The notes under the pieces are model-generated. The model was not told where the DNA came from. It saw only the letters and a program-made list of their open reading frames with translations, and searched no databases. Positions 1 to 62,868 of a stretch of 64,000 nt of DNA are shown here, piece after piece. Source of the stretch: Heterotrichella gracilis (Eukaryota > Sar > Xanthophyceae > Tribonematales > Xanthonemataceae). Position 1 is the first letter of the stretch. Each line of letters opens with the position of its first letter. A program made the translations under genes and the position numbers. The DNA is taken from assembly GCA_032358255.1 (NCBI GenBank), contig JAULBX010001226.1, positions 2,943 to 66,942 of the forward strand, given 5' to 3'.

Positions 1-295
1 TCTAGGGTGCTGCATTATATAAGGAGCTTTTTTAAAGCTGTATTGGAGGTACCAAGCCGCCGCTGCCCTGGGGCGTGAGGGTGATTGTGCTGGCGTTCAG
101 GTGAGGGTTTGGATGTGAAAGGGCTGTGGCTGGGGAATCATGAGTGGGCAATGGGCGACATTTAAGCCTATTGTTTTCTAGGGTGCTGCATTATATAAGG
201 AGCTTTTTTAAAGCTGTATTGGAGGTACCAAGCCGCCGCTGCCCTGGGGCGTGGGGGTGATTGTGCTGGCGTTCAGGTGAGGATTTGGATGTGAA
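1..295 (+). repeat. Two tandem copies of a lipase exon 3' edge plus donor
   Basis: Two copies of a unit of about 170 bp begin near 1 and 175 (tctagggtgctgcattatat...). Each ends in a stretch coding LPWGV-VIVLAFR followed by a donor (caggtgagg). The same 3' edge ends the real oxyanion-strand exon of lipase copy B at 15621-15751 and the extra copy at 15845-15946. Both copies here carry an in-frame TAA upstream of the edge, so they are not usable whole exons. The true equivalent exon of copy A must lie before the window. Confidence 0.75.
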
Positions 296-550
296 AGGGT
301 TGTGGCTGGGGCTGCTACACGAGGGAGCAATTGGCTCCATATCAGCCTCTTTTTCTCAGATGCTGCAGTGCCTAAGTAACACCAAAAACGCAATCCTTGC
401 ATGTGCTATTTCCCCAGGACCATGCAGCCGCATACATTTGCACACAGGGACCAAAACACAAAACCGCACACTAGTTTCCCAATCCCCACACGTGGTCCTT
501 CCATCCCAACAAAAGAACAGAACCCCCATAACCCCTTTTTCCATCCCCAG

Positions 551-3494
551 GGGCACCGACAGCCGCAAGAACGCTCAGGCCGACCTACAGGTGTGCCGCA
601 TCAGCCACCCCCCTACCAGGGGCGCGCTGATGGCGGGTACGCGTCCGCTGGTGCACCGGGGGTTCTACTTCACGTACAAGGGGGCGGGGCTGGATGTGAA
701 GCTGCTTGCCAGGGTGCAGGAGCTGCTGGAGGAGGTGGGAGGTGCTGCGGCAGAGACACGGGTGAGGCTGAGTAGGGTTTTGGCTTAGGGTTTAGGTTTA
801 GGGTTTGGGTGCAGGAGCTGCTGGAGGAGGTGGGAGGTGCTGCGGCAGAGACACGGGTGAGGCTGAGTAGGGTTTTGGCTCAGGGTTTAGGGTTTGGGGT
901 TTGGGTGCAGGAGCTGCTGGAGGAGGTGGGAGGGGCTGCGGCAGAGACACGGGTGAGGCTGGTGGCTGGCTTAATTGCTTGTCCAGATATACTTTGCTAC
1001 ACCTTGCTTATGTGCTTGTTACAACTAGCTAATTAGGTCGATGCTGATTTGGGTAGGCCCATGGATTTGGCGATAACCTGCTTGTGCAGTTGCCAAGGTC
1101 TCTGCGTAGGGTTCCTGCGTAGGGTTCCTTGCAGACCTCGACTGGCATTGTACCCCACCCAAGCTTCCCCTCCGTGCCATCTGCCCTGCTCCCCTTCATG
1201 GTGTATGAAAATATGTCCTCCCCACAGATTCTCGTGACTGGTCACTCCCTTGGTGGTGCGGTTGCCACCCTGGCTGCCATCGACATCCAGACCCAGGTGG
1301 TGAAACCCCACTACCCTAAGGCTAGGGTTTCATGCTACACCTATGGGGCGCCACGCACTGGCAACCACAGGTTTGCCACAGAGTTTGAGGAGCGTGTGAG
1401 GGACACCTGGCACCTCATCAACGATCAGGTGCGATGAGGTCAGATCAGATCAGATTAAATTATCTTCGGTGAGGTGAGGAGTTTGCATCCGAGTGTGAAG
1501 AGCGTGTGCAGGACACCTGGCACCTATCAATGATCACTTGCGATGAGAACATATCAGATTAGATCATCCCAGCGTGCCTTCAAATTAAACCAGTGGACTA
1601 ATCAAGGACTTGGTACACGTGTTGCCACAAGATGTTCATCATGTACGATTGTACCTTCCATTAACAGATACAATTGTATAGTTGCGAATTACACCAATCA
1701 TACTCCTGATCAACAGATTCTGTGACCACAGTTACAAAGAATCTTTGTTTTCTGCCCTCTATGTGTTTAATATCCAGTTATATGGTCCCTTTCAGCATGC
1801 AGCATCTGTTGCCGTGGGTTGGCCAAGCTGTTGATGGTGTACACAGTACAGAACATGCATCCAAATCCTACAACTACAGTCTTATCATGTGCAGGACCTG
1901 GTGCCGCGCGTGGGCAAGCTGCTCATTATGTACAAAGTTACTTTCAATCTCATCACGATTCATCATTACAATTACATCAGAAATCCTACAAATACCTCTT
2001 TTCCATGTGCAGGACCTGGTGCCTCGTGTGGGCAAGCTGTTCATTATGTACAATACAGTTGCAATTATGAGTTGCAATTAGTAATCGTAACCACAATTAC
2101 CAATCAGTATCACAATGGCTAGTACCCAACAAACATGCAATTTTATGTGCAGGACCTTGTGCCGCGTGTGGGCAAGCTGTTCATTATGTACAAGCGAGGG
2201 GGTCAGCGCGTTATCATCAATCGCAGGGGGGACATGATAGTCAGGCCATCAGCGGTGGAGCTCAACGTGCACCAGGCGCCACGTGCGTCGGAAAACCCTA
2301 AACCCTGCATTTCAAAACCCCAGACCCAAAACCCTACACAGCGGTGGAGCTCAATGTGCACCAGGCGCCATGTGCATGGGAAAACCCTAAACCCTGCACC
2401 CCAAAGCCCTAAACGCTAAATATCGGCGGAGGTCAATATGTTCCAGGCGCCACGTGCGTGCCACAGTTGCCCTTTAGCAGCAAAATCACGCCAGCTCAGG
2501 GCTGCATGGCATGCATGTCATTGTTTGGCTAAATACATGCATTCCAGCACAGCAGCCAGGATATCACCCAGCCTTGCATATAATGGACAGCAAACTCATG
2601 CCAGGTCAGGGCTGTATGGCGTGTATGCAGGGATGTATTTGTGTACATCACTGACTGCAGCCCATTGGTCCGTGTGCAAACGGTCGCAAGCAGTCCATTC
2701 CTGGCACTGTTTGCCCCCACTTGCTTACACTACCATGGTGTGCGTGCAGTTGGCAGCGTGAACGACCACTTCCTGTGGGCCTACATGCGTGCGCTGGGGT
2801 GCGTGATGGAGGCCCAGTTCACCGACAAGTGCATGGATGGGGGTGCAGAAGGTGTGAAGCAGCTCCTCAGGAATCCACTGCTGAGGAAACAGGTGAGGGA
2901 CTGCAGGGAAACGTAATGGCACCCGCGCTATCCATTGGTTTGTAGTGGCAGGGACCCTAGAAACCCTCGACAAGGTTTTGTTGAAGCAGCTGATGCACTG
3001 CACCCTGCCGAGGAGACAGCCAGGTACGCTCGAATTTTTATTACAAACATGCATCTTTATAAGAAAATAAAGACCAGTAATTATGATTAATCATTAGACG
3101 TTAATTATACATTTCTTCAAGGCAAGTGCACATGCGCAATTGTATCCTGCCACTGTTGACACCATTTTGTGGTCCCAAACGCCACTGAAACCCTACCCCA
3201 GACCCTCACACACCCTTGCCCCATCCGCAGATGATTGAGAAGCACATCCTGCACACCAAGGTGGTTGTCAAGGGGGGGAACGTGGATCTCCACGTCTCAG
3301 AATCAGTGAAGAAGGGGAAGAAAGCGCCGGGGGCCGCCGCCGCAGCCGCTGGGGTTGACGGGGATGGTGGCGGGGATGGGGTTGGGGATATAGTGGATGA
3401 CTGGGCGGCAGATGCTCGCAAGCCTGAGCTGCTGGCTGCGGCAACGCTGCGGACCAGGGCGGTGGATGTGTCGGGGGTGGAGTCAGGGGTTTAG
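551..3494 (+). CDS. Class 3 lipase domain, 3' part of gene (copy A)
   Basis: The gene is cut by the left window edge. Exons are 551-761, 1228-1428, 2153-2282, 2750-2892 and 3231-3494, with phases that close from junction to junction, giving the last 315 residues. The first exon opens with GTDSRKNAQADL, the segment after the oxyanion strand. The second has the nucleophile elbow VTGHSLGGAVATLA and the YGAPRTGN motif. The third begins with DLVPR, whose Asp is the likely catalytic acid, and the fourth has SVNDHFLWAYM with the likely catalytic His. Family knowledge: such alpha/beta hydrolases cleave acylglycerols or phospholipid-derived diacylglycerol. The last exon is low in complexity (Ala/Gly/Asp) and its stop TAG falls inside a TTTAGGG repeat. 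It is nearly identical exon by exon to copy B; whether it had the same membrane N-terminus cannot be seen. Confidence 0.85.
806..962 (+). repeat. Two extra copies of lipase A exon 3' edge
   Basis: The segment gtgcaggagctgctggagga..., coding QELLEEVGGAAAETR and ending in the donor gtgagg, occurs in the real exon (about 714-761) and again near 811 and 906. The copies are joined by tttagggttt-type spacers. Their orientation matches the gene and they lie downstream of the donor they copy. Confidence 0.85.
1475..2075 (+). repeat. Degenerate exon-edge copies in the lipase A intron before the catalytic-Asp exon
   Basis: Near 1480-1545 lies a copy of the 3' edge of exon 1228-1428 (gaggacacctggcacct-like, ending near a degraded donor). 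Near 1797, 1889 and 2010 lie three copies of the 5' edge of the next exon. Two keep the acceptor (catgtgcag) and code DLVPR-VGKL-IMY. The real exon starts at 2153. The copies break off after about 45 exon bases into AT-rich sequence. Confidence 0.8.
2335..2465 (+). repeat. Copies of the 3' edge of the lipase A catalytic-Asp exon
   Basis: Two copies of the edge ggtggagctcaacgtgcac...ccac|gtgcgt lie near 2342 and 2421, just after the true donor at 2283. CCCTAAA-type spacers surround them. A further shorter copy sits at about 4405-4430, well downstream of the gene. Confidence 0.75.
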
Positions 3495-3794
3495 GGTTTA
3501 GGACCAGGGCCATGGATGTGACGGGGTTGGAGGGGGTGGGGGTGGAGTGAGGTGGCGCGTGGTGGGTGTTGGAAGTGGGGATGGTGGAAGTGGGGATGGT
3601 GGTGGGGAGGAGAACAAAATGGCAGGACCGTCACAGCGATTGCGTGTTCCTTTGTTGTTTCTTTTTGTCTTGCTGTCTGTGCGTCTTGCAACCGTTTGCG
3701 CTGTTGTTTTTTTTGCCGCGTCATGCATTCGGGGGTTTTCAGCACCCAGTGGGGCAGTATTGCTTATGAACCGTGTCCCCAACGTCACACGGTC

Positions 3795-4160
3795 ATAGTG
3801 TAATATAATATGTCAATGACCCTGTGACATATGTGTGCCAAGATGACTGCTGACTAATTTATTTAAACCCACCTGCAGCTGCTTTGAAACACCGTGCTTC
3901 TGGCCAGGCTTGGCGGTTAGCTGGAGGGTTGACTGCCGGGGATGTAACTGGTTTGCCCTCACAGAATCTGATTGAGAACAACACTGCAGATGTAAATTGG
4001 CCTGGGACAGCCCTACAATTTGAACTCCCAGCATTTTCTGGGCAAGTCCCTGGAAGCTTCAGCCTTTGAGCGTTTTAGCGAGCGTCAGCAGACACTTTCG
4101 ACAACGAGGCTAACGTCTTTCTCCTGTTCGCACGCGCAAGGCGTGCACTTTTCTTTGACT
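3795..4160. other. 3' flank of lipase A, no gene seen
   Basis: AT-richer sequence after the stop codon. Part of it (about 4015-4060, gaactcccagcattttctgg) matches 20145-20170 downstream of copy B, so the duplication extends past the lipase gene. No coding signal was found. Confidence 0.5.
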
Positions 4161-4165
4161 GTCAT

Positions 4166-11500: not shown

Positions 11501-14500
11501 TACCCTTGGTTGCATAGGTCTGCATCCCTAGGGTAGAGATTGCGCTGGGAACCTAAATTAGGGTTTGCGCTGGGATCCTAGTTGAGTGTTTTGTTCTGTG
11601 CGTTCCCTTTCTTTCTTTCCTTCTTTCTTCTGGACCCTAGTGCAGGGATTTCTGACTCGTGCCAGGGTTTTTGCAGGGGCTTGGTTGAGGGTCTGCTCAT
11701 CGCGGTGACGGTGCAGGATATACATGCGGATGACACTGTGCCTGGAGCATGTGCGCGCCCTAAACCCTAACCTTCAACCCTGAACATCCAAAACCCCAAA
11801 CCCTAAGCCAGGACGTTAGCCCTGTCAACACAGTACCACAAGTATGTACGCACCCTACAAGCTGAAACCCTAAATCCTGAATCCTGTAGAGTGCAGGACA
11901 AGCAGCAGGACAAGGCTGGATCCATGTGCAATGAACCACTTTGCTTACTAAACAGTGAACCCTACCAAACCGTGAGCCACAACCCTAAGTCTTTACATCC
12001 ATCCCTTGGGCTGTTGATGCCACCTCCTGCCCGGCAAACGTGGGTATCAAACCCTAATCGTACTAAACCCTACACCGCAACCCTAAAGCGTCAATTCCCT
12101 CCTTTGTGCAGCGAATGTCTTCATCCTCAACCCTAAACCGCAACCCTAAAGCTGCATCACCCCCCTTTTGTGCAGTGAACACCTTCATCCTCAACGTGTG
12201 TGGCTATTTGACAAACCAGCTGCCAACCCTGGAGCCAGCCCCACTGTGCACCACCGGGATCCTGTCAACCTGCGAAATCCCGGAAAGCGACCTACAACCC
12301 CTGCAGCCCTGGTACCAAGAGGCACTCACCATGCTCACCCCAGAGCAGCTGGTAAGGGTGTAGGCTTTAGGACTTAGGGTTCTCTCCTCAGAGCACCTGG
12401 TAAGGGTTTGAAACTTAGGGCTTAGGGTTCTCTCCTCAGAACAGCTGGTAAGGTTGTAGGGTGTAGGGTTTTCAACGCCACTGATACCATGAGGCACCCA
12501 CCATGTGCCACAGGGTGTCACCACCACTCACCTGGGCCAGCAAGCTGCACTCTCTGTGGCAGCAACCCTAAGATCCCTAAAACCCTAAATTAAGAACCCT
12601 AGACCCTAAACCCTTGTCCCGCAGAGTGCTACCACCGCCTATGTGGAGCAGCAGGCAGCCCTGTTGGAGGCAGCAACCCTAAGATCCCTAAACCGTAAAT
12701 CAGGAATCCGTAACCCGAAACCCTTGTGCTGCAGAGCGTCACCACCGCCTATGTGGATCAGCAGGCAGCCCTGTTCGCGGCAGCAACCTTGACATCCCGA
12801 CACCCTAAATCCAGAACCCTAAACCCTGAACCCTTGTGCCGCAGAATGCCACCACCGCCTACGTGAATGAGCAGGCAGCCCTGTTTGAAAGCACCACGGG
12901 GGAGAGTGCCCAGTCTGTGCTGGATGCAGAGGATACGGGGATGGCGGTGGCCACGAGCCTCAAGAGCGCCTTGCGAGCGGTGCGTGGATACTCTGTAGGG
13001 TTGAGGATTTAGGGTTTAGAAGGCCAGGGGGTATTGGGATGGCGCTGGTCACTGGCAGGAAGAGCGCCCTGCGTGCATGTAAGGGTACCCTATAGGGTTT
13101 AGGGGTTTGCAGGCTATTAGTAAGGGTATTGGGGTGGCGCTGGCCACTAGCATGAAGAGCGCCCTGCAAGCGGTGCATGTGAACCCTATAAGGTGTAGTA
13201 GGGTTTGTGGTGCCCTGTGAGCGGTGGGTGTGTGGTAAAATCCACCTTCTACCCCTTTTTGCAGGCTTACCTCGGCTGCCTCATCCTGTACTTTGTGGGA
13301 TACTGCTACTACGTCTACCTGGCAATAAAACAGCTCAGGAGGCTGCCGTACCAGGTATGTATGTGTGGGCGACACCATTGGGGTTTAGGGTTNNNNNNNN
13401 NNNNNNNNNNNNNNNNNNNNNNNNNNNNNNNNNNNNNNNNNNNNNNNNNNNNNNNNNNNNNNNNNNNNNNNNNNNNNNNNNNNNNNNNNNNNTTGGCTAC
13501 TGCTACTACGTGTACCTGGCAATAAAACAGCTCAGGAGGCTGCCGTACCAGGTATGTATGTGTGGGCGACACCATTGGGGTTTAGGGTTTAGGGTTTTGG
13601 CTACTGCTACTACGTGTACCTGGCAATAAAACAGCTCAGGAGGCTGCCGTACCAGGTATGTATGTGTGGGCGATACCACATGGGTTTAGGGTTTAGGGTT
13701 TTGGCTACTGCTACTACGTGTACCTGGCAATAAAACAGCTCAGGAGGCTGCCATACCAGGTATGCATGTGTGCCTGTTGGGCGCCACCATTAGGGTTTAG
13801 GGTTTAGGGTTTTGGCTACTGCTACTGCTCAGGCAACTGTTGGTGGATGCATCCCTTCAAAGCCACGCATGGTACTGTGACTGATAGGGTTTTAGTGCAG
13901 GGGTGAAGCCCGATACACAAGCTGCCACTTACGCTGCCGTCGCACTGGCAGATCCACTGCATGGCAAACCCTAAACCCTAAACCCTCAACCTCTTCCACT
14001 CATAGGTCCACCGCATGGTCAACCCTAACCTGAACCCTAAACCCTATGCTATTCCACCCGCAGGTCCACCGCATGGCCAACCCTAAACCCTGACCTATTC
14101 CGCTCGCAGGTCCACCGCATGGCCAACGTGTATGTGCGCTGGCAGATGCGCACAGTGCTCATCGCGTTTGTGCTCATCATAGTGGCACTGACCCTAAACC
14201 CTTAACCCTAAATCCTAAATATCAACTTTCACCAGGCATGAGTTCAGCCCTAGACGTGTGCACATGGCAGACACACAAGCGGCCCTACTGCTGCCCAACT
14301 CACGCTGCCCTCCAACTTGCAGGTCCACCGCATGGCCAACGTGTATGTGCGCTGGCAGATGCGCACAGTGCTCATCGCGTTTGTGCTCATTATAGTGGCG
14401 CTCACCATGCTCACGTTTGTGGACTACGGCAGCCAGCAAGGGACAATCATACTGCTAGTGGGGCTCTTCCCAATGCAGGTGGGTGGGTGGGTGGGGGGGG

Positions 14501-17500
14501 GGTACGGTCTAGGGTATTGGGTTGAGTTTAGGGTTCTAAAGTTGAAAACAGTAGCTTCCATTGAAGATCAGGTGAGAAAATACGTGATAGAAAACAACAG
14601 ATTTGGCTGCACTATATATATTACAGCATACCGGCGCAAAAGCCAGATCAGCAATCAGCCAAGCACAAGCTTGCGCCACCCATTCCGCAATTGTCTGCTC
14701 TGGGATTGATAACCCCATCTTTCCACGGCTGAGTGCCGCCATCCTGGTGATAATCAACTCATTCAGGGTCTGCCCATGCACAAAACCCTACATGGCATTG
14801 CCTGTAGGGTTTAGGATCTCGCTGGCAACAACCATCATTTCACACAGGATGAACCTACTAAATGTATTATAAGTTACGTAGCATAACATAAAGCGGGTAA
14901 CCCCCTCCCCGCAGCTTATGGCTGCAATTATGGTGATCATCAACTCAATCATGGTCATGCCCATGCTGCCTGGGGGATGGGGCCTGGAGGGGCAGCAACC
15001 ACTGCACGAGGCACTGGAAGACTTTGCATGGACGGAGCGCAGCATGGAGGGGGCACTGGAGGCGCGCCCCGTGGGTAAAGAGCACCCCATGTTCTGCTTC
15101 GAAACCGCGCTCAAGATGCTCTACTGGAGCAAGCTGTCCTATGTGCACGGGAAGGTGCGGTTGAGTGGTGATGGTGTGTGTGTGGTGGGGGTTGGAGGTG
15201 TGCGAGGAAGGGCGCCATTGGGGTTCATAGCACTGGGTGCTACGGGTTCAGGGTTAAGGTGGTCGTATGGCAAGGTATCCTATTGGTTGCACAACCCCAT
15301 GTTCTGCTTTGAAACCGCGCTCAAGATATTCGAGCACCCTGTCCTACGTGCACGGGAAGGTGCAGGTGTGGGGTTTGATGCTGGGAAGCTAATTCGTGTG
15401 GCAATGTCAATGCCGTAACCCATGTAGAGTCGTCACTACTCAGGATTGGATAGTTCACGCCCCATATGCACAGGAAAGGTGCCCTGTACAGTAATGCACT
15501 GACCAATCCCACCTACCCGCCCCACCCCTTTTCACCACACAACGCCACGATGGGTCCCCAAGTCCGCACCCGCCCCCCCACACCACCCACCCATGCCCTC
15601 CTCTCCCCCCACTTTTGCAGGACCCTGGGTGGGACATTCATGTGGCCATGTCCCTATGTGGCTGCGACCAGTTTGAGATGCTGTACGAGCCCTCGTCAGA
15701 CACAAAGGCGTTCCTGGCCTGGGGCGTGGGGGTGATCGTACTGACGTTCAGGTGGGGATATGGATGTGAATGGGTGGTGGCTGGGGGTTTAGGAGTGTTT
15801 AACAAGTGGGCCAATGGGCGACATGTAAGCCTATTGTTTTCTAGGGTGCTGCATTATAAGGTATATAAGGAGCTTTTTAAAAGCTGTATTGGAGGTACCA
15901 AGCCGCCGCTGCCCTGGGGCGTGGGGTTGATTGTACTGACTTTCAGGTAGGGGAATGAGAACGGGTAGCGGCAGGGAGGTACGGTTGTGGCAAAAGAAGT
16001 GGACGAGTGGTTGCAATTCATCCCATGGGATCAGGGACACAAACTTGAGCAAGTAAAACACTGCGCATTAAAAATATTATATTATATTATATATAAAAAA
16101 ACACGAATCCCCACAAACTCTGCTTCCCATCCCCAGGGGCACCGACAGCCGCAAGAACGCACAGGCTGATCTGGCGGTATGCCGTGTGGACCACCCCCCC
16201 AGGCGCGGGGCGCTGATGGCAGGCACCCGTCCCCTGGTGCACCGGGGGTTTTACTTCACCTACAAGGGGGCGGGGCTGGACCTGAAAATCCTTGCCAGGA
16301 TTTGTGAGCTGCTGGAGGAGGTGGGGGGGGCTGCGGCGGAGACACGGGTGAGTCTTAGTAGGGTTTTGTCTCAGGTTTAGGGTTTTAGGTTTTAGGATTT
16401 AGGTTTTGGGGTTTGGGATTGGGGAGCTGCTTGAGGAGGTGGAAGGGGCTGCGGCGGAGACACAGGTGAGGCTGAGTAGTGTTTGGCCTTAGATTTTAGG
16501 GTGTAGGGTTTATGATTGCGGGCTGCGACCAAGACACAAGTGAGGCCATTCGGGTGGTTAGGCGGTTAGTTGCTACCTGGGGGGGCGATTGCTCATTTGT
16601 GTAAGAGTTTACCATAGGCAAGAAATTGCTTCCTCAGGGACCCTAGAGGGTGTGCATTCGTGCAGCTGCATATTCACCTACCTGTATTTGGGGCATAATT
16701 ATGATAGTTCATGTTTAATTGGAACTGTAATTGCATGTCCCCTCTTCGCCCCCCTCCAATGCCCGTGCTCTCTCTTACCCCCCCCTTGATATTTCCTCCC
16801 CGCAGATTTTCGTGACTGGTCACTCCCTTGGTGGTGCGGTGGCCACCCTGGCTGCCATCGACATCCAGACCCAGGTGGTGAAACCCCACTACCCTAAGGC
16901 TAGGGTTTCCTGCTACACCTACGGGGCGCCACGCACTGGCAACCATAGGTTTGCGTTTGAATTTGAGGACACTGTGAGGGACACCTGGCACCTCATCAAT
17001 GATCAGGTGCGATGGGGTTTTGGATCAGAGAATACGAGGTCAGATAAGATCAGATTAGGTCAAATGGCAAGTTTGCGTTTGAGTTTAAGGACACTGTCAA
17101 GGACACCTGGCACCTCGTCAAGGATCAGGTGGGATGAGAATTTGGATCATATTAGATCAGGTGAGATCGATCACGTGCTTTGCTTTTGAATATGTTGCCC
17201 AAGTGGCGCAGCAGCAGGTGCGCTGAGGTCAGATAAGATTTAATGAGGTGAGATCAGATTAGATCAAATCAAATCAGATTAGAATTGGCAGCCACCTGCC
17301 AACACCAAGCTGCCGTTTTTGCGGTGAATTCAAATTGGATGAGGTCAGATCAGAACCGTGCACTGGAAAGCAAATACTTACTTACTTAGATCAGAACCAT
17401 GCGCTGAGGGCACAGCTTTGCAGACCTGCTCCTCACCATTCCAATTTCAGTTGCAATTACAATCACAGTGACAATTACAGTTGCACTGGATTATAACAAC

Positions 17501-22017: not shown

Positions 22018-22025
22018 GAATCTTG
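21740..22025 (+). repeat. Tandem copies of the membrane-tail exon end
   Basis: Units of about 135 bp (taggaaggtaa...cttgcagactacctcacctg...ctctttgg-tag) repeat after the first tail at 21749. Each ends in a short hydrophobic tail, an FG-like dipeptide and a stop codon. Confidence 0.75.
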
Positions 22026-23560: not shown

Positions 23561-23719
23561 CAGGCCTTGCGCCAGGCAAATGTCATTGATCCTGGTATTA
23601 AAAAGAAACGCAGCTGACTGCCACCAAAGGTTCCACCGACTGGATCAAGGGATCACAATCTGACTTGGGTTGTGCCAGATAAAATCCTGATTGCACCACC
23701 GGTCAAGCCCCTCAGGAAT

Positions 23720-23810
23720 CAGGTGAATGCGGCCATCACGCTGTGGCTGAACGCACTTTATGATTATCACAAAGTGCGTTCAGCCACAGCGTGATGACCC
23801 ATTCACCTGT
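23720..23810. repeat. Long inverted repeat at the 3' end of the carrier gene
   Basis: A perfect 26-base stem pairs 23734-23759 with 23771-23796 around an 11-base loop. The pairing continues outward with a few mismatches (aggtgaatg arms). The arms are copies of the carrier gene's last-exon edge (ITLWL...), one in each orientation. Confidence 0.9.
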
Positions 23811-24204
23811 TCCAGTCAATCGTGGGATGGGCACGATGGCCAGCGCGCACATGCGCAGCATCAGCCTTGCCACACAGAACGCCAGGGGCTTGCGCGGCTG
23901 CTGCACAAGGTTCAGGGCAGGTGCGCATCCATTAATCCTCATCATCGCAGCGCCGCCCGCAACTTGCCCTCCTCACGCCCCGATGGTGATCATTATAAAC
24001 CATAATCCAGCCACATGTGATCGACACGATGGCCAGCGCGTCACTGTGCAGCACCAGCCTTGCCACACAGAGCGCCGGGGAACCTTGTGCAGCTGCCAGC
24101 AAGAGGTTCTGGGCAGGCCAATGTACGAGTACCCTGCTCATCAGGATGCCGACCGCACTACCGATCACGCCCCGATGGTTATCATCATGAAGTAGGTCAG
24201 CCAC
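23720..24204 (-). repeat. Degenerate copies of the carrier gene's last exon
   Basis: Downstream of the stop (minus sense) two broken copies of the last exon appear: one with NLLLAAAQG...ARLVLHSDALAIVSIT (about 24150-24000) and one with NLVQQPRKPLAFCVARLMLR then CALAIVPI (about 23925-23800). Confidence 0.8.
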
Positions 24205-32050: not shown

Positions 32051-32389
32051 AGCTCTGCACAGGCAGGAGTAGATCCAGAGGAGCACTGGGCCAAGGCAAG
32101 AGTCGGGGTGTAGTGTACATTGTACATCCCGGCCTTTTGCTTTAGCCCACTGCTGCTCAGGATGTACTCTCGCCTGTGGTGGAGTCCACACGCCTGGGAT
32201 TGGAAGGAGCAATTCCTGCAGTGCAGCAAGATGTTGAGCTTGGAAATGTTGCTGCACAGCCAGAAGCAGTTGCGAACCAAAATGGGGATGGGGATGGGGA
32301 GCGGCTGCTGCTGCGCGACAACGTAACAATTGGCAGCCGCCGGTCGCGACTACAAGACCACGCAAGATCATTCAGGTCTCGGTAACCCA

Positions 32390-46239: not shown

Positions 46240-48801
46240 ATGTCATTCTTGCTTGACGACCCCACCTCTGAGTTCTATCAACCCAGATTGAAGGTGGCGC
46301 CACCCGGGCCCACTTGCACCTTCACAACCACCACCACCACCCGTCTCAAACCACCACTGCCCCCACCGTCGCACCCACCCGCAGCCGCAAATCGCAACCA
46401 CCAACATATGCCGATGAACGACCCGCCGCCCCTTCCCAGCTTCCGCCAGCGAGCCCCCAACCTGCACTGGTGCAATCCTGCTACTGGGGAGACCAGCGCC
46501 CTGCAGGCGGCTGCCATTGCAGCTGGGAGCAAGTACAACCGCCTGCGGGAGTTGGGGTCTGGGGCATATGGCAGCGTGTACCTGGCAGAGTGCAGGGGGA
46601 CTGGGCACCTGGTAAGCAACCAGGGCATGTAAATTTATTTACCAGGTTGCTTAGAGCGCAGTAAGCGCCTCACCCACCACCCATCATTGCATGTGCCTCC
46701 ACTTATTGGTTACTCCACCCCACCCCCGCCCACTTCACCCCCCAGAGGAGGCGATCAAGGACTGGAGAGGCTCATGGCCCACCTGGTGCTGTTCAACCTG
46801 CGCGCCCACACATGTATTAAATGCCACCCTCCAGGTCCTCACCCTGGTCCCCAGGGGGCGACCCAATCTGTCCCCTTGATTGTGCCCCAACTACCCCGAC
46901 CCCCACTTGCAGGTAGCGATCAAGTTCGTGGAGGTGCACACGCCCCGTATGCTCCAGCTGGTGGTGCGGGAGGCGCTCAACCTGCGGGCCCTCACCGGCC
47001 ACCCCCACGTGGTGCCCTTCCAAGAACTCATCCTGACCCGGGATGGGGTGGGGATAGTGATGGATTACATGAACGGGGGGGCGCTGTCGACTGCGCTGGA
47101 GGAGTACGGCACTCTCAAGGAGCGAGGGGCAAGGAATTTGTTCCAGCAGCTTCTTGCTGCAGTGGACTTCATGGAGCAGAAGGGGATCACTAATAGGTGA
47201 GGGGGAAGGGGGAAAACCCAAGGTAGGGTTGGGGTGGCTTCATGAAGCAGAAGGGAAAATTATATAAGTGTTAGAACGTGTTAAACATTTTCACCAATTT
47301 GTTCCAGCAGCTGCTTGCTGCGGTGGACTTCATGAAGCAGAAGGGGATCACCAACCGGTGAGGGGACACTATAAAACGAATCATAACACACAAAAAAACT
47401 CCTTGGCTATTGTTGAAGCCATAGGTGCTGGGGGATGTCAGGCGGGGGGGCGTTTCCGGGGGAAATGAAGGACAACATGTGCACATGTAATGCAATGACA
47501 GATGGGAACTTCCTTTACGGGTACATGCACCTATACGCCCCTTCAGACTGCACGCAAACCCTACACTTTGACCAATATGCTAAAGAATGCAAGCCTCACC
47601 CCACATGGACAAGCTCGACAACCTGCTCCCGGACCGCCCCTTGGCCTGCAAACCCTGGCTTCACAAACCCTAAACCCTGGCTTGAGAAACCCTACACCCT
47701 ACTCCTGCAGGGACATCAAGCTCGACAACCTGCTCCTCGACTGCCCCCCCAACTGCGACCCGCAGCTCAAGGTGTGCGACTTTGGCCTCTCCAAGGACGT
47801 CTGCCGCAGCAGCGCCCCCCATACCCTGGTGGGCACCCCAATGTACATCGCGCCAGAGGTGCTGGTGAATGCAGGGAGCTACGACGGGCACAAGGCGGAC
47901 GTGTGGTCCTGTGGGGTGGTGCTCTACTACATGCTGCACGGGAGGTGGGTGTGGGAAAACCTTAGGGGGAAAAATCCTAGTGAAACCCTTAACAGCACCA
48001 TGGTATGCAGGTGGTGCTCTACTGCTTGGTGCATGGGACATAAATCACACCACAACCTCCCCTTTTGCAGTTGGGCAGTCAGCCACTGTTACTGCCACTG
48101 GCACACTGTGAACAGTGTCCTCCTCCCGTGTGCCCTCCCCTCCTGATCTGTCTGCTCTCCCGCTTGCAGGCACCCATTTGAGCAAAGCTGGCGCAGCGTG
48201 GATGGCAGCGCTGCGCCCAACCTGGCCCTGCAGTCCTACTTCAGAGCCCTCATGAAGCATGAATACGCTCTGGCAGATACGCTCAGCCCCAACTGCAGGT
48301 AGGCTACGCGATGGGTTGTGGTGTATACTGCAGTCAGTAAATCAGGTGCATCAGTAGTATGTGGAACAGAATTTCTAGGGCCTTGTAGATCACACTGCTC
48401 TCCTACCTTCTACTACGCCCCAGACCAGACCCCACCTGCTGCCCCTCCATCTCCGCACTCGTATCCCACCCCTGCCACAACCTCGCTGGAATGGAAATCT
48501 CGAGCTCATCATACGACAAAGCAATCGAGGATTGACCAAGATCGACCTGAACATGACACCCGTTTTCTGCATCCCCTCCCGCAGGTCTCTCCTGGTTTCC
48601 ATGCTGCATTTGGACCCCGCCTGCCGCCCCTCCATCGCCGCACTCATGTCACACCCCTGGTACCACGAGGGCGCTGCAGAAACCCTAGGGCCCAACATCA
48701 GGAAAATCAACCGGGGATTGGCAAAGCAGGAGGCGGCCCCTTGGTTACAGAGTGAGCCTGACATCAGGAGTATGTGCCAAGCCACATTTCCCAACATCTG
48801 A
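46240..48801 (+). CDS. Serine/threonine protein kinase, SnRK2/CDPK-like
   Basis: Five exons: 46240-46611, 46913-47196, 47711-47944, 48170-48298 and 48585-48801. All phases close, giving 411 residues. Residues 1-100 are low complexity (Thr/Pro-rich). The kinase domain has the ATP loop [18 protein letters not shown] with the catalytic Lys, NRDIKLDN in the catalytic loop (Asn in place of the usual His), CDFGLSKD with the metal-binding Asp, [12 protein letters not shown] and [14 protein letters not shown], then [17 protein letters not shown]. The loop and activation-segment residues suggest an active enzyme. Family knowledge: related plant kinases act in stress signalling; the role here is not known. 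An open in-frame stretch lies upstream of the chosen ATG, so an earlier start is possible. Convergent with the kinase at 51444-55730. Confidence 0.88.
47225..48505 (+). repeat. Exon-edge copies in kinase 1 introns
   Basis: Near 47233 and 47303-47358: 3' edge of exon 2 (cttgctgcggtggacttcat to ccggtgagg). Near 47600-47640: 5' edge of exon 3 (caagctcgacaacctgctcc). Near 48008-48035: 3' edge of exon 3 (ggtggtgctctactgc). At about 48423-48495: 5' part of exon 5 (acctgctgcccctccatctc). Confidence 0.8.
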
Positions 48802-51443: not shown

Positions 51444-54400
51444 CTAGTAGATGTCCATGCCTGCTGCGGTGTTTCTGCATGCCGCGCACACCGCATCCAG
51501 CACCACCTCCACCTGGTGCTGGCTCTGTATGTGGGGAGGGATGGTCACATCCACAAGCATCTGGTTGATGGACTGCACACGGGGTAAAACAAAGCAATGT
51601 CAGCAAATAATTGGGTGGCGCAAGCTTGTGCAGGGCTGAATGCTGATCTGGCTTTGTTGTCAGAATGACGGGGATATGTAGGATGATGTCAGTAATAGTG
51701 ATGCGCTCCTTGCGGTCAAGCGTGAGCATGCGCTTGAGCAGGTGCTTGCCTATAGGGTTTTTCATGAAACCCTGGACCCTGCTACGAGGTAAATAACCAA
51801 GTAACCAGGGGCGGCACCCTCATGTGCAACGGCAGGTGACCAGGATCTTCAGGGTTTCCCCTGATCCCACACCCTAAACCCTGCTATACACCAAGCAAAA
51901 ACAGTGTGTGGGCCGCACCTTCATGTGCACGGGCAGATTGACCAGAAACTTCAGGGCTTTCTCCAAACCCCAACCCCAACCCTACACCCAAGACCCAATC
52001 CCTAGGCCCTCGCCGCACCTTCATGTGCATGGGCAGGTTGACCAGGAACCAGGGGTGCAGCACGATGTCAGCAATGGTGGTGCGATCCTCGGGGACAAGC
52101 GTGAGCATGCGCTTGAGCACGTGCTCACCCGTAGGGTTCCTCCTAAAAGCCACACCCTCCACCCACACCCTGAACCCTGCTGTACGGTGATACAAATACT
52201 GTTGCAAGGCGCACCTTCATGTGCATGGGCAGGTTGACCAGGAACCAGGGGTGCAGCATGATGTCAGCGATGGTGATGCGCTCCTCGGGGTCAAGGGTGA
52301 GCATGCGCTTGAGCAGGTCCTCGCACTCTGGCGTGAGCCCCGTGGGCATGTGGTACTCGCCCCGCATGATGCGCGGGTACACCATGCTCAGCCGCGAAAT
52401 GTGCTGCACTGACTCGTCGCCCTTGCGGTAAAAGGGGAACCTGGGGAGCAGGAAATTGTAAGTTTCTAAAATGCCAATGATTCAATATATGCATGTTACA
52501 CCATGCCCAGCTGCGAGATGTGCTGCACAGAAGCTTTGCCCTTGGGGTAAAAGGGGGACCTGGGAAGAAAAGAAAGCATTTTGAAACCTGGCATCATTTG
52601 ATATATCAAGAGTTGAAACAGCTGGTCATGCTGCGTGGGAACACCATGCCCAAATGTGCTGGACAGACTCGTGGCCCTTGCAAAGGGGAACTGGGGAATT
52701 TGAAAACTTTACATAGCAAAAGATGCAAATGTGTGGGTAAACTCAAAATAAGGTGGGCCTGCCTAAACCCTAAACTTTGCATCCCACTGGGGCAAACAAT
52801 CCCTAATCCCTAGCCCCTGAACTAAATGTCACAAATGCAGACTTACTGGCCACACACAAAGATGTACAGCAGTACGCCGCAGGCCCACACATCCACAGGC
52901 TTGCCATCATAGCTGTTGCAGGGGGTCAGCACTTCGGGTGCCACGTAGTCCGGTGTGCCACCATGGGACTTGGGCATCGAGTCAAAGTACTCTGCACGAT
53001 TTAAGACCATGTGAGTGAATATGTACCAATTATGACAAACTTTGTAGCCAAAATGTATTATGCTTCAGGATAAGGGTTGTTTGAGGGTTTAGGGTACTGG
53101 CGCGCTCACCATTTTTCGAGTAGCCAAAATCGCAGATCTTGAGCAGAGGCAGCGGCCTGGAGTTGTCCAGCAGGATATTATCCAGCTTGATGTCGCGGTT
53201 GGCCACCCCTTTCTTGTGGCAAAAGTCCAGGCCGATCACCAGCTGCTGGAAGAACCAGCGCGCATAGGACTCGTTCAACCCCTTGCCCACCAGCTTGTGC
53301 TGGGCGTGCAGGAAGTAGTCGCACATGTCGCCACCCTGCACATAATTGCAATTTATTACATATTTGATACACCTAACATCATGTGAATACAAGCACATGT
53401 TGCTGCCCTGCGCGCCGCCAAGTGCACAGACCTAGTCAAGCGTTGCAGCATGTCCACGCCACAGGTGTTGGCATGGGTCAGAGAAAGCAACAACCCACAC
53501 ATGGCTTACCTGCGAGCATTTGCAACAGAGGAAAAACGAGACTCTCAATGTCTCGCAATCAGTCAGCGAGGAAGTTTGGCATTCAGGATCTACTGACCTG
53601 CATGTACTCCAGCACAATCGCCAGCTCGTTCTGGTGCTGGAACACCTCGTAGAACTGCACAATGTGCGGGTGCACCACCAGCATGCGGTGGTTCAGGATC
53701 TCGCGCGCCAGCCGCTGCTTCGTGGCGGACTTGACCCGCACAAACTTGATGGCCACGTATTCCCTGGTGGTGATGTTGATGGCCAGCTTCACCATGGCGG
53801 TGGCGCCTGTGGACAAAGTGCAGGGTTTTAGGTTCAGGGTTGGACCATCAGTTGGGGTACTAAAAATTTAGGGTTTACAAGTGAAGGGTTTAAGCAAAAA
53901 CCCTCAACCCCTGGCACCCACCTCGCCCCAGGTCCGCCACAACGTGGTACCGCCCGTTGAGGACAGTGGCCTGCGATGCCAGCGAGCCGTTGCTCAGCGG
54001 CTCCCCAGAGCTCGACGCGCTCCCGTTTGACATAGTAGAAAACGTGGTGGCGCCCAGCTTGCGCAGCTTGATGAGTTCGTTGTAGGCGTCGGCTCGCCGC
54101 CGCCCGTCCAGGACCGCAAAGTGCGCCGCTGTCTGCACGCCCGCCAGCTCCCGCTCTACCTCAGAGCAGTAGCTGCAGCAGCACGCCCAACTGTCAGCGA
54201 CAACACTCACATAAGGGAACCCTGTCTAGGGTTTTAGCATGACCAGGGGCAGAATTGTCCAGGGTAAGCGCGCCTATCCAGGACCGCAAAGTGCGCCGCT
54301 GTCTGCACGCCGGCCAGCGCCCGCTCCACCTCAGCGCAGTAGCTGGGGGCAAGTCAAACCGCTGGTGACAACCCCCACCCCGCCCATGAAGGACCCTGCT

Positions 54401-57172: not shown

Positions 57173-60100
57173 ATGCAGTCCGACGAAGAGAACCAGTTTT
57201 TACGAGCAGCAAGGGAGGGAATCCAGCTGCAACTAGGAGGAGATGCGACACACCCCTTCCAAGAAGCACCTAGAGCCACAGACGGCCTGGAAGAGAAGCC
57301 ACTCCCTCCACAACCAGGTGTGGACAATTTGGCCAGGGTTGAACCAAACCCTGCTAGGGTTTTTGTATGGCCTGACCAGCGCTCCCTCACTCCGCACCAC
57401 CCTGCCTTCAACAACGACCTCGTACTTGAGATGAGGGTACATGTTTATCTACTATCCTATCCTGTTATCTATATCTGTCCTGCCCTGTCAGCAGCAGCCA
57501 ACATCCACAGAGTGGGCAGTGGCCTACGCCTTCAAATACCAAAACCAACGTGCATAGAATATAACTGGAACAAGGTACAACAGGGACTAAACCCGGCGTC
57601 TGCAGTGGCCACTATTCAAGTACAACTTTAGTCCAGGGTGCCTTGCGTCAACTACCCTATTTGTGCAGGCAGCGGGAAAGGCGCCGGGCAGCCTCCGAAA
57701 TGGCAGTCAGGCAGCTGTGAGGAATTCATCCAAGCTTGTGAGGAGGGAGCCCTGGCCACCCTCCAGCGCTTCCTGAGTAACAACACCTCAGAAGCCATCA
57801 ACAGCCTGGACCCCCGTGAAGGTAACCCTACACCCTAACCAAGAAGCCATCCTTCGGAAGGGTTTGGACCCTTGAGAGGGTACCGGGCGCTGATAGGGGC
57901 CACGCTTGGCAGGAAGGGCTGGCCATCGATGATCAAAGGATATCCTGATCGATACCTCCGATCAATCAACGAACCCACAGTTGTTTTGCAGCGAATGCCG
58001 GCCACAATCGATAAGGACCATACTCAACCCCTCGGGTGGGGCAGTTTCCGATCCCAGGTGCAAAGGGTTACAATGGATCAAGTTACAGGGATCTGGAGCA
58101 GAACTCCTGATAATCAAAACATACCTTTAAAAGACCAAAAAGAAGAAGAAAATTATGTTTGTAACCTTAATTCGTTGGCATGGGTTGTCCTATCTGCTTA
58201 GCCAATCATTTACACCCACCCGCATTACTTGTGTATATGTCTTTCATTATTCTTCATATTCCAGTTTGATTATTCTTGAAAAATAAACATTTTTCAGGTC
58301 ACAGGGATCTGGAGCAGACTGCGGCTCACGTCGCCACCGCACATGGCCAGGCAGCTGTCTTGGAAGCCCTCGCCAGCTCCCCCTTCAGCGCCTGGGATGC
58401 CAAGGATGCGCAGGGGTTCACGGCCCTGCACCTGGCTGCCCAACACCGCCATGCGCCAGTGGTGGCAGCGCTTGGGGGGACGGGGTTCACCGCCTGGAAC
58501 GGAAAGGACCACCAAGGCTACACCGCGCTGCATGTGGCGCTGCTGGAGGACAATGGAGGTGAGAGATCATCTTAATCCAAACATGACAATATATGTATAG
58601 TTGTTTTGAAGAAATTACAGTCGCAATTACCAGTGCACCATCCCGATACCCTTGCAGGTAAGAGACCAGCTTCTGGCAATTACACATACTATCAGGATTG
58701 CGGCTACAGTTCCAGTTCCATCTACAACTAAGATTGCCATTCCAATGCACCCATGTATTGCAATTATAATGTAGTGATCCCACACTGCAGGGGACCTGAA
58801 GCGCCGCAGCAAAGCAGACCTGGTGGCAACTCTCACCCAGCTGCTCGCCTCCCCACTGGTGGCATCCCAGGCGCACATGAGTCGGTCCAACGTGCGGGGC
58901 GCCACACCCCTGGACCTGGCCGCGGAGGGTGATGGCCAGGCACTGGCGCTGATGCTGACAACAGGCAAGGGTTTTGCATTGAGTGATTAGGGTTATTTAA
59001 CCGGAGCCAGGGTTGAAGTAGGTGCGTGCCAGGCGCCACACCCCTGCACGTGTTTGGGAGGGCGATCGTCAGGTGCTGGCGCTGATGCTGACCCTAGGTA
59101 AGGGTTTTGCTGTGCACATCGCGTCGTTCTGCGTGGTGCGCTGCACGGCCAGCAGGGGTGTGTGGGTTTTAGGGTTTGATGTAGGGCTTAAGGTTTAGGG
59201 TTTATATGAGTAGGCGCGTGCAGGTGACACACCGCTGCACCTGGCAGCAAAGGGCGATGGCCAGGCGCTGGCGCTGAAGATGACCACAGGTAAGGGTTGG
59301 GGTAACACAGGTGCGTAACGCAGGTGAGGTGTTACTTGCAACATGGCACGAATTGTTATCAGCACCCCCCCTTCTCCACCCAACTCCTGGAGGCCTGTTC
59401 AAAAGAGAGGAAGCGGTTCAGGACGGGCAAGGCGAGACCCCTTTCCACTGGGCTGCCAGGCGCCTACACCTCCACATGGTCCAATTAATACTAAGCTGGC
59501 TCCCTTGTAGTCCTAATTTTGACACAAAATAACATGCCCCTTTCTGCAGGCCTGTTCAAAAGCGAAGAGGCGGTCCGAGACGGGCAGGGGGAGACCCCAT
59601 TCCACTGGGCCGCCAGGCGCCTGGACCTCCCCATGGTGCAGCTGCTGGTCAGACATGCGGCGTACATGTACCCGGGGACCCTCCACCTCACCAACAGGGA
59701 TGGGGAGACGTGCCTGCACGCAGCGCTCAGCCTGCCCCACGGCCTGCACAGGCAAGGCTGGAACCCTGAATCCCAAACCCTGAACCCCAAACCCTACCCC
59801 TTGAACACTAGGTTGCCTCCACGCAGCGCTCAGCCTGCCCCACTGCCACATGCAAGCTGAGGCTGCAACCCTAACATCTACCACCATTCCCTTGCAGGGT
59901 GGTGTTGTAACGCCCAGCTCTAGCTAAATAAGCTTAACAGCCCTCTCTTAGGCTTAAAAGCCTCTCCCCACATATTCCGCTTTAAAGCGCCCTCCATGCA
60001 GCGCTCATCAGACTGGCGCATGGCCTACGTAGGCAGGGCTGAAATCCCAAATCCTAATCCTACGGATGCCCACGGCCTCCACAGCAAGGCTGGACCCTAA

Positions 60101-62868
60101 CCCAAAACCCTAATAGGCTGTTGTCGTGTTGTTGAAACATCCTTCGGAGCAATCAACAAATTCTATAGGGACCCTTGTCGCTATTGGACAAGCAAGTTAC
60201 CTTAAGGTACTCAAGGTTGACTGCCAGGCGCACAGGTTACCCAACAGACGATGTCATTTCCACAGGCTGCAGGATGTGCGTGAGAGGGAGGCTTGCCAGG
60301 AGCGCTTTGTGTCCTCTTTTGTGGAGGAGCTTGGGTTGGAGTCGTTCATGGGGAGGGACGAGAGTGGCAACACCCCCCTGCACCTGGCGGCTGCTCGGCG
60401 CATGACGCGGGTGGTGGGGATACTGCTGGACAGCCCAGGTAGGGGATGAACCCTTTCCAAGGGTTTTGGTAGGTGCTGGTCGATGGGAAAATACCTACTC
60501 CGGGTGTTTGTGTCTAACCCTAGTGCGTGCTGGCCATAAACCCTAACAATACTGGCATCACCATACATATGGACCTCCACAAATGGTCTTGCCAGTATTG
60601 ATTGGGTTTGTGACAGCATGCGCTAGGGGTTTGACACAGACACCCTTAGTAGGGGTTTTCCTACTCAACCAGCGCATGCGTTATGATCTTATGCACATGA
60701 GCCTCCACAAATCAGATGGGCCTTGCTCATGGCCCTCATCCCCCATCCCCCACTCCAGTTTCAGCCCACAACCCACCACCACCTCACCTCCCCACCGCTC
60801 CAGGCGTGGACATTTACACCGCGAATGACAAAAACGCTGCTGGGCAGATGCCCGTGGATATCGCGGCGGCCAACGCCGATCAGCCCACCCTCTTACTACT
60901 GCTGCAGCAAGAGAAAATAGGACCCCTGCTGAGCACAGGTAGGGGCAAGTTGAAGCCTGAGGGCCACTGCAAAATCTTCCAATGTATTATTCACAGATCA
61001 ACATGGAAATTGCTCCTGAATGTGTGTGCCTGTGCTTATGATATAGTACACTTTTGAGAACCCCGCAATATGTCGTTTTCTACATACAATTCCCAGGTCA
61101 GCAGCGCACTTTTATCCAGACAAATCCTTGCGCTTTTGCCAATGGCTGGGTGACCATTGGTGGGTTAATAAAAAGTGTTACTAATATTTACAGGTCAGCA
61201 GCGAACTTTGCTCCAGACTGTGTGCGCTTTCCACCTGATAGCAGAGGCGGTGCGCAACTTCTTGTTCATCGCATCCCTCCTGGCGACCATCACCTTTGTT
61301 GGCTATGCTGCGGCGCCCACTGCGTTCACTGATGCCGGTGGGTGCTGTGGGGTGTGGGACGGGTGCGAGTGGTGGGTGCGCATAGTTGCGTGCACGTGGC
61401 CTTGTCACATTTGGATAGTGGGGGCAGCATTGCTGCTGGGTATGAATGTTGGATGGCATGCCTGTAGATTGATTGCTGACGCCGGTCAATTTTGTGTGAT
61501 TACTGCTGCTGATCATCTGTGCGTGATTGATGAAAGCCCACATACTGTCCACCGCTATTGACCATGGACAACAAGCAGTTGGCATGCCTTCCTCCTATCC
61601 ATGCGAAGACACCAAAATGCTCCCCCTTCCCAGGTAATTCGTGCACTCCCTCCACCCATGCTATGACACCACAACACCCCCCTTTCCCAGGTTTATATCC
61701 CGCCCCCTCCCCCTCCACTGCCCTCCAAGTCTTCTGGTACCTCAACAGCTTCTCATTCTACTCAGCTGTAGGTGTGTAACCCCTTAACACCCTACACTCT
61801 AAGTCTGTTTGGTACCTCGACAGTTTGTCGTTCAGGCACAGTTGCATGTGGCGTATTTGCTGGTGGTTATGTGCGTGTGAACACTGCCTGTTTTTTAGGC
61901 ATATGATAGCTGCTCCTACACCGTAAACCCAGTTGCCTAACTGATAATGCATACCCATCGCCATTTGATCTGCCTGATCGTGGTAATGCATTTTCCAGAG
62001 GCGATTGACACTGCTGATATGGGACCACCATCCTGGACCAATCAGGGGAGCCTCATTGCCAAACGCACCGAATCTGTCGTGCTGGCCATGCCCTTTTTGC
62101 CTGTACCTAAAGCCTAGAATGTTAGTGCATCCCCATTGGATTTATAATCATGCTCATGGTTTCCACAGGGACGATCATCATGGGTATCACCATGCTGGCC
62201 CAATCAGGCGCACCCATTGACTTTGCCAAGCGTGCAGAATCCGACATGCTAGCCATGTCTCTCTTGCTGCTCACGGCAGTGGCCCTGGGGGTGTGCGCGT
62301 TTGCTGCGGCGGGGTTCATCGTGCTAGACAACGAGCCCAGCAGCTACAAGGCCACGCACCTGACTGTGACGATCGCAATCGGAGGTAGATGCAAAATGTG
62401 GCTCAAAATTTGGGGAACAAATGTGTAGCATTGCCAGGGCCAAAACTGCTTGACGCCGCAATTGCAGGGGGAGTTGCTCTGGTTGGAATGCATGCATGAT
62501 CATCCATTTATAGAACACCCCTTCCACCCCACCTGGGATCCGACCGCGGAAGCGCCGCGGCCGCCGCCGCCGCCGCCTCATTTGCTGTGTCATCGGTGAA
62601 ATGTTTGCATCATTTATAGCCTACATCCATTTGACTGAAATTGCTTTGTGTTTCTACAGGTTTTGGGGCGCTATACTTGCTGCTGGTGAACTACTTTGGC
62701 AGGGTGGTTGTTCCCCAGCTGCCCGAGTGGGCTGCCCCCCTTGGCTGGCCTGTGCAACTGCTGTGCAAGGGGGACAGATGGATGAAGAAGAAGGTGGGAG
62801 AGGGTGCTGAGGCAACGTTTGGCTTCCTGTTGTGCGGCGCAAGGAGGGACCACAAAAAGGCACAGTGA
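57173..62868 (+). CDS. Ankyrin-repeat protein with PGG-like multi-span membrane tail
   Basis: Exons: 57173-57436, 57492-57549, 57669-57821, 58298-58558, 58791-58964, (59224-59289), 59550-59751, 60266-60438, 60804-60938, 61194-61337, 61691-61771, 62169-62384 and 62660-62868. Phases close with or without the bracketed exon, giving 711 or 689 residues. The N-terminus is charged. Ankyrin-type repeats follow: GFTALHLAAQHRHAPVVAAL, GYTALHVALLEDNG, GATPLDLAAEGDGQALAL, GETPFHWAARRLDLPMVQLL, GNTPLHLAAARRMTRVVGIL. The C-terminal half has hydrophobic segments (FLFIASLLATITFVGYAAAP, LLLLTAVALGVCAFAAAGFI) like the PGG domain of plant ankyrin-membrane proteins such as ACD6. It ends in a basic tail (DRWMKKKVGEGAEA). 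Family knowledge: those plant proteins act in defence signalling; no role can be inferred here. The donors after 58964 and 59751 are GC, not GT. Confidence 0.87.
58078..59500 (+). repeat. Edge copies around ankyrin exons 4-6
   Basis: At 58078-58106: 5' edge of exon 4 (gttacagggatctggagcag). At 59028-59095: degraded copy of the exon 5 end (gcgccacacccctgcacg to ccctag|gtaagg). At 59224-59289: an intact smaller copy with both splice sites. At 59393-59500: 5' half of exon 6 (LFKREEAVQDGQGETPFHWA) with a degraded end. Confidence 0.85.
59810..60110 (+). repeat. 3' edge copies of ankyrin exon 6
   Basis: Variants of ctgcacgcagcgctcagcct and acggcctgcacaggcaagg occur near 59815, 59993 and 60067, downstream of exon 59550-59751. 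CCCTAA-type spacers separate them. Confidence 0.8.
61090..62105 (+). repeat. Edge copies in introns of the ankyrin gene's membrane region
   Basis: At about 61094-61130: 5' edge of exon 61194-61337 (caggtcagcagcgcactttt). At about 61627-61660: 5' edge of exon 61691-61771. At about 61795-61830: its 3' edge. At about 62038-62095: 5' part of exon 62169-62384 (caatcaggggagcctcattg). Confidence 0.75.

Follow-up and report, generated by a model that had tools for sequence, protein, structure and literature searches.

Tandem duplications at DNA breaks with 3' overhangs arise by CST-Pol alpha-primase fill-in, according to PMC8355091. PMC7215372 and PMC2246262 describe telomere repeats inserted at staggered breaks together with a duplication of the target; plain target duplication accompanied a minority of the inserts, at 3 of 66 loci in the horse (PMC7215372) and, in PMC2246262, at 6 of 130 loci in rodents and 4 of 25 in primates. 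Fill-in duplication and telomeric insertion acting together would leave an edge, a telomeric filler and the same edge again. PMC4974935 outlines how introns may be gained when an exon segment bearing AGGT is duplicated in tandem. Here, a 64,000-nt stretch of the genome of the alga Heterotrichella gracilis (contig JAULBX010001226.1, positions 2943-66942 of its contig, hereafter "the window") was analysed, together with other stretches of the same genome, for copies of exon edges that lie within the adjoining introns. These copies lie in direct orientation close to the exon, show a gradation of ages and decay like non-coding DNA; they keep one splice site, and some of them stand in arrays. With a probability of about 0.6, they stem from tandem duplications, short, local and frequent, that happen to straddle exon-intron borders.

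Short tandem duplications produced by break repair are also direct, local and short; unlike those known cases, the duplications described here are dense, persistent, mostly observed in genes and across exon-intron borders and organised in places as arrays, with telomere-like filler at over half of the gapped joints. As in mammalian interstitial telomeric sequences, the genome's own telomere repeat occurs at internal sites, at times with target duplication, whereas in this alga duplication together with telomeric filler is common and the joints lack polarity. The AGGT type of intron gain, as outlined in its source, shares with the present case a tandem exon duplication hidden by splicing, but there exon DNA is turned into a new intron, while here an existing intron is lengthened. 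Introner elements, as generally understood, provide a genome-wide supply of intron DNA in the same manner; unlike them, the copies have no common element sequence and their source is the neighbouring exon edge. Literature searches, judged by titles and the beginnings of abstracts, returned no description of the exon-edge-copy pattern.

The assembly sampled comprises 68.5 Mb in 903 contigs, from which 20 stretches of 10 kb were picked arbitrarily in addition to the window. Gene models were obtained with a simple purpose-written gene finder, trained on the genome analysed and seeded with one lipase assembled by eye from six exons (15621-19213) and eight kinase pieces; because this lipase was a seed, the fact that the finder recovered its six exons, with the last end trimmed, does not validate the models independently. 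Two low-GC, bacterial-looking stretches were dropped from the gene-finder run, and the edge test was carried out on the window and the 18 other stretches. After cleaning, the output contained 40 genes, 373 exons of at least 40 nt and 319 introns; the finder fused the two window lipases into one unit and labelled some copies as exons (for example 815-856, 911-952 and 16427-16465). For the edge test, each 50-nt exon edge was compared with the intron adjoining its exon, and Smith-Waterman scores of at least 36 were counted as matches.

The alignments revealed that the 3' edge of the upstream exon matched its own intron in 33 of 302 cases and the 5' edge of the downstream exon in 33 of 307, compared with 2/234 and 0/240 for the far edges of the upstream and downstream exons, respectively. 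In the same introns and at the same score, no antisense match of an edge to its own intron was detected, and 10,340 comparisons between introns and edges of other genes gave none. When the cut-off was lowered to 22, the facing edges matched in 60/302 and 58/307 cases at a control rate of 1.7-1.8%, and at a cut-off of 28 there were 139 copies, of which 57 lay in the window, spread over 91 of the 319 introns; the control gave 1. Copies scoring 40 occurred in 23 of the 40 gene units.

The first-pass annotation of the window had proposed aligning introns to their flanking exons, and the excess of edge matches over the far-edge, antisense and other-gene controls bears out most of what it described: exon-border copies in the introns of the main genes (at score 40, all six units predicted in the window have them), copies of 5' edges upstream and of 3' edges downstream, and an orientation mostly that of the gene. 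Its estimate by eye of more than 70 copies is of the same order as the 57 counted. The expression that introns are "built from" such copies was too strong, since copies represent 3.4-4.7% of intron bases overall and 15% in the introns having copies, and its description of the gene families as unrelated applies to most of them, with the exception of two lipase paralogues and two protein kinases.

Copies of the upstream edge had a median relative intron position of 0.24 and lay near the donor, with its GT, while copies of the downstream edge had a median of 0.75 and lay near the acceptor, with its AG; this order is opposite to that derived from the AGGT model as far as its source sets it out. 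The splice dinucleotide of the copied border was present within a 14-nt window at the copy border in 36 of 38 and 27 of 29 cases, whereas the opposite dinucleotide was present near the inner end of the copy (10-nt window) in 20 of 44 and 19 of 40, against backgrounds of 39% and 44%, in agreement with the earlier statement that most copies carry a single splice site. Differences between exon and copy were distributed over the three codon positions as 131/104/211, and 51 of 57 indels were not multiples of 3; the exon is thus under constraint, while its copies accumulate changes in the manner of non-coding DNA. Introns with copies were also longer, with a median of 436 nt (n=61) compared to 276.5 nt (n=258) in those without (P about 1e-7).

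The copy-bearing borders of the window are given below, with positions in the window.

712..961, plus strand: 3' edge and donor of lipase-A exon 551-761, three head to tail, unit of 95 bp with TTTAGGG-like filler.
1371..1564, plus strand: 3' edge and donor of the lipase-A exon ending at 1428, with an intron copy at 1481-1564 (82%).
1863..2193, plus strand: 5' edge and acceptor of exon 2153-2282, with two intron copies upstream of the exon.
2250..2460, plus strand: 3' edge and donor of exon 2153-2282, copied downstream, with filler resembling CCCTAAA.
12501..12888, plus strand: acceptor and 5' edge of exon 12845-12979, with upstream tandem units of 110 bp that include CCCTAAA-like filler.
13296..13826, plus strand: 3' edge and donor of exon 13265-13354, with downstream tandem copies of 104 bp and TTTAGGG filler; a gap of 100 N lies at 13393-13492.
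13937..14193, plus strand: acceptor and 5' edge of exon 14323-14478, with upstream copies and CCCTAAA-like filler between them.
16298..16517, plus strand: 3' edge and donor of lipase-B exon 16137-16347, with a downstream copy whose filler resembles that of lipase A.
16949..17167, plus strand: 3' edge and donor of lipase-B exon 16806-17006, with a downstream copy.
18668..18970, plus strand: acceptor and 5' edge of the lipase-B exon starting at 18938, with copies upstream.
25393..25774, minus strand: 5' edge and acceptor of exon 25333-25426, with three copies upstream in gene sense.
26753..27083, minus strand: 3' edge and donor of exon 26984-27187, followed in gene sense by a 94% copy at 26753-26872.
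27127..27521, minus strand: 5' edge and acceptor of exon 26984-27187, with a copy at 27441-27521, upstream in gene sense.
40378..40537, plus strand: 3' edge and donor of exon 40288-40431, with a 91% downstream copy and CCCTAAA filler.
47135..47365, plus strand: 3' edge and donor of kinase exon 46913-47196, with a 91% downstream copy; homology ends 8 nt past the donor.
52014..52322, minus strand: 3' edge and donor of kinase exon 52215-52440, followed in gene sense by a 93% copy at 52014-52126; homology ends 5 nt past the donor.
52378..52567, minus strand: 5' edge and acceptor of exon 52215-52440, with a copy at 52497-52567, upstream in gene sense.
54101..54345, minus strand: direct pair (92%) with acceptor and 5' exon edge; of the finder exons 53922-54172 and 54244-54342, either may be the copy.
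59387..59640, plus strand: 5' edge and acceptor of ankyrin-gene exon 59550-59709, with an upstream copy at 59387-59483.

Lipases A and B have a common duplication with similar filler, but the copies of lipase A were 97-98% identical to one another. The finder had also labelled 14110-14181, inside the copy region 13937..14193, as an exon, and the copy at 52014-52126 as part of one. Degenerate simple repeats resembling GATCAGATTAGATC were observed at 1415-1465 and 17025-17279, in introns of the paralogous lipases, and the segment 22249-22548, with 81% identity to 18888-19190 of lipase B, represents a third partial lipase.

Protein searches with the six-exon lipase gave named matches in Coccomyxa, Apatococcus and Botryococcus at 37-44% identity, and a kinase fragment matched green-algal proteins of several classes, among which those with a name (Bryopsis, Ostreobium, Myrmecia, Trebouxia, Coccomyxa) reached an identity of about 50%; no close relative was among the matches to either query. 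Pfam analysis of the predicted proteins revealed a class-3 lipase, a TatD DNase, a membrane transport protein, two protein kinases and an ankyrin protein, together with a VWD match below the family cut-off. Among 10 long open frames of the window the kinase alone matched a Pfam family, the N-terminal part of lipase B matched none, and an Rfam search of the window gave no match. The two stretches dropped from the finder run (L009 on the 894-kb contig C1 and L020 on contig C100) have a GC content of 35-36% compared to 52-61% in the other 18, with dense long open frames and few telomere motifs, and they probably come from bacteria that accompanied the alga or contaminated the assembly.

Several observations point to local tandem duplication as the source of the edge copies. 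Direct and separate inverted local repeat pairs numbered 60:0 in the window and 67:1 in the 20 other stretches, and the latter figure supports the suggestion of the first-pass annotation that the process is genome-level. In clusters counted over 31 sequences (295 kb, telomere hexamers masked) the corresponding ratio was 114:3, where inverted pairs take in separate arms and hairpin palindromes fall outside them. The spacing of copies was mostly 60-120 bp, with a peak at 80-120 bp and a second peak at 190-220 bp, which the decay of a middle copy would produce. Arrays of near-identical units were found at 712-961, at 13493-13826 and on contig C461, with a unit of about 217 bp. The C461 paralogue has two extra copies after the exon 3' edge, whereas the window gene has none at score 40; paralogues thus carry differing copy sets. 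Searches of two stretches across the whole genome found no near-identical second haplotype.

In the tandem-duplication reading, a short local duplication would straddle an exon-intron border, often with filler between the copies; the copy on the exon body would be joined by splicing and the spare copies removed, so that the duplication would be tolerated. Where a donor-straddling segment is doubled, the copy on the exon body would be used and the second, with its donor, would stay downstream in the intron, while doubling of an acceptor-straddling segment would leave the spare copy upstream. Selection would in this manner leave acceptor halves upstream and donor halves downstream, and would remove duplications inside exons. 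Since tandem duplication and splicing would yield the order, the orientation and the single splice site, border targeting is not needed to account for these. With less certainty, the doubling may result from repair of staggered breaks, where overhang fill-in would double the span between two nicks. Before joining, some ends may also receive TTTAGGG repeats, either from telomerase or from telomeric donor DNA. Repeats would later expand or homogenise by unequal exchange, and the net outcome would be a lengthening of introns.

The filler between copies was frequently telomere-like. TTTAGGG is the telomere repeat of the genome analysed, as contigs C70 and C140 begin with an array of it; a 28-base pattern of four units had 209 matches (overlapping matches and telomere ends counted) compared to 0 for the reversed pattern, and the commonest heptamers of the window are frames of TTTAGGG. 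In introns, TAGGGTT was counted 124 times and AACCCTA 192 times, where heptamers of equal composition had a median count of 9. Fillers contained 7-12 telomere-like motifs per kb; the density was 4.95 in copy-bearing introns, 1.87 in copy-free ones, 0.89 in intergenic DNA and 0.33 in exons. Among gapped pairs, a telomere-like hexamer was present in 55 of 95 fillers compared with 1380 of 4750 matched control intron segments (29%). The two orientations of the motif stood at 58:62 in the opening third of the introns and at 24:84 in their final third; filler polarity was 20:21 on the donor side, that is none, and biased at 20:5 outward on the acceptor side, which may be due to the needs of splicing. 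An outward telomerase polarity, with TTTAGGG after donors and CCCTAAA before acceptors, had been noticed by eye and was dropped as a general rule after these counts. The telomere-rich filler suggests break repair with telomere-end machinery, in which the enzymes named above are the presumed participants, and the polarity of the inserts is a weak test of telomerase because either end could be extended.

Other repeats were observed in the same sequences. A kinase paralogue at C25:130832-130481 (in stretches L038/L044) has an intron at a site that is intronless in the window gene (near 47050), and at least six other genomic matches span the site unbroken; judged from these alignments, this is probably an intron gain. 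The intron contains telomere-like repeats and an inner direct repeat, and near 130760-130600 an element ending in CTTACTTACTTA, which is bounded by an apparent target-site duplication, ACATGCACACTGG, and is SINE-like by eye, with pieces in stretches L010 and L021 and at 17007-17537 of the window. A dispersed repeat of about 73 bp lies at 14613-14686 and 51592-51659 of the window, with dozens of matches across contigs. Long hairpin palindromes lie at 31817-31976, 32058-32178, 23715-23813 and 49348-49402, and also in L011, L014 and L010; sequences matching the palindrome at 49348-49402 are scattered over many contigs, on both strands.

Several of the counts tell against short tandem duplications arising by staggered-break repair without regard to the border. 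The 31 sequences contain 13 hairpin palindromes, and only 3 of the 114 clusters were intergenic where 18.0 were expected from random placement (P=9e-6), although age-matched clusters gave 2 of 35 (P=0.16). No telomere-like hexamer was present in 40 of the 95 fillers, and telomeric filler at the two joints showed ratios of 22:22 and 20:17, which means no polarity; the staggered-break and telomerase view leaves both unexplained. A 116-bp filler without the hexamer, the sole one searched, had no match in the genome outside its own array, and a templated insert from elsewhere was rejected on this result as the origin of filler. The remaining two points also favour a process directed at the border: in age-matched comparisons, 15 of 512 windows at exon edges but 12 of 1007 in the first 60 intron bases were duplicated (P=0.02), and 8 of 15 single copies on the donor side had no homology beyond +6 in a gapped flank test, against 7 of 15 with it, which is more than random breakpoints easily give.

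Such a process, in which breaks or insertions would be steered to splice junctions (for instance through co-transcriptional R-loops, or through G-rich strands at donors or at the acceptor complement priming telomerase) and introns would grow by copying exon edges, is regarded as unlikely. It draws on the sharp border peak of the telomere-masked duplication profile, in which 12-16% of windows were duplicated at -40 to +20, compared to 2-6% in the intron and 0-3% more than 80 nt inside the exon, and on the raw excess of exon-containing clusters over random placement (56 against 34.0 expected in a count of 87; 94 against 58.4 in the count of 114, where 17 were intron-only against 37.6). Intron-only pairs decay about twice as fast, and exon-edge copies are easier to detect than intron-only copies because the exon is conserved. 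Once age was matched, 22 exon-containing clusters stood against 11 intron-only ones (expected share 0.61, P=0.31; P=0.08-0.74 at three other cut-offs), and exon-edge windows did not differ significantly from those at +40 to +100 (21 of 1019, P=0.29). Several clusters counted as intron-only probably represent exon edges missing from the annotation, and this would speak for the border. As for breakpoints, homology of some donor-side copies ends within 4-8 nt of the splice site despite 91-94% identity, and the last copy of the C461 array has little in common beyond the junction, whereas on the acceptor side 9 of 11 single copies run on into the intron and 2 have no homology beyond +6 (P=0.11 for the difference between sides). 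Breakpoints lying exactly at splice sites had been considered and were abandoned, as ungapped extension exaggerated them and gapped flanks show homology beyond +6 in 7/15 and 9/11; a donor-side preference is retained as a hint of a weak tendency. Border targeting is accordingly neither claimed nor dismissed, the age-matched tests being mixed (one significant, two not), and of the earlier proposal of a genome-level process acting at exon-intron borders the genome-level part holds, while border specificity is not established. A related, tentative possibility, given slightly more credit yet still improbable, is that a border-directed, telomere-linked repair cycle grows introns, in which breaks arising preferentially at splice junctions of transcribed genes would undergo telomerase extension and C-strand fill-in, and rejoining would double the exon edge together with its splice site and leave TTTAGGG behind.

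Replication slippage or unequal exchange between the abundant intronic telomere-like tracts, without break repair or telomerase, is considered doubtful, a little more so than border targeting; the three arrays of nearly identical units fit it, and the motifs are common also in introns free of copies, but an initial duplication would require tracts on either side, the inner breakpoint is exonic, where the motif is rare, and the 40 motif-free fillers are not accommodated. That the copies are alternative or relic exons under selection for regulated splicing is very unlikely: some retain splice sites and short open frames, several were labelled exons by the finder, and homology at times covers just the exon edge and splice consensus, yet nearly all indels shift the frame, 47% of the differences are at third positions, far below the strong excess of two coding copies, and the opposite splice site is at background. 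Filler between direct duplications resembles an insertion with target-site duplications, as would be left by a mobile introner-like family inserting at splice sites with long duplications of this type; among the 319 introns, however, there were 9 cross-gene matches (3 telomeric, 5 dispersed repeats and 1 C-rich), and the 116-bp filler matches nothing outside its array, which makes such a family highly improbable and sustains the earlier view that the copies are unlike introner elements. An assembly error, which the 100-N gap inside one array might suggest, is given hardly any weight, as the copies diverge by 2-31%, in a graded manner and across many contigs.

Taken at the level of the sequence comparisons made here, known processes of duplication and telomeric insertion, working at unusual density, would feed intron growth in this alga. 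The first-pass annotation had raised the possibility of a new mode of intron growth; copy-bearing introns are indeed longer, but what produces the copies is most likely a process of an ordinary type. The Chlamydomonas comparison of PMC8226300 describes the advantage of long introns as unknown in that group and their driver as likely ancient. If the border-directed cycle were true, intron length would be driven by telomere-type processing of splice-junction breaks. For annotation, the copies call for caution, as they mimic exons and misled the present gene finder in places. The genome offers a datable and countable source of new intron DNA, in which the conserved exon serves as the age reference and the growth of introns is linked with the insertion of telomere repeats.

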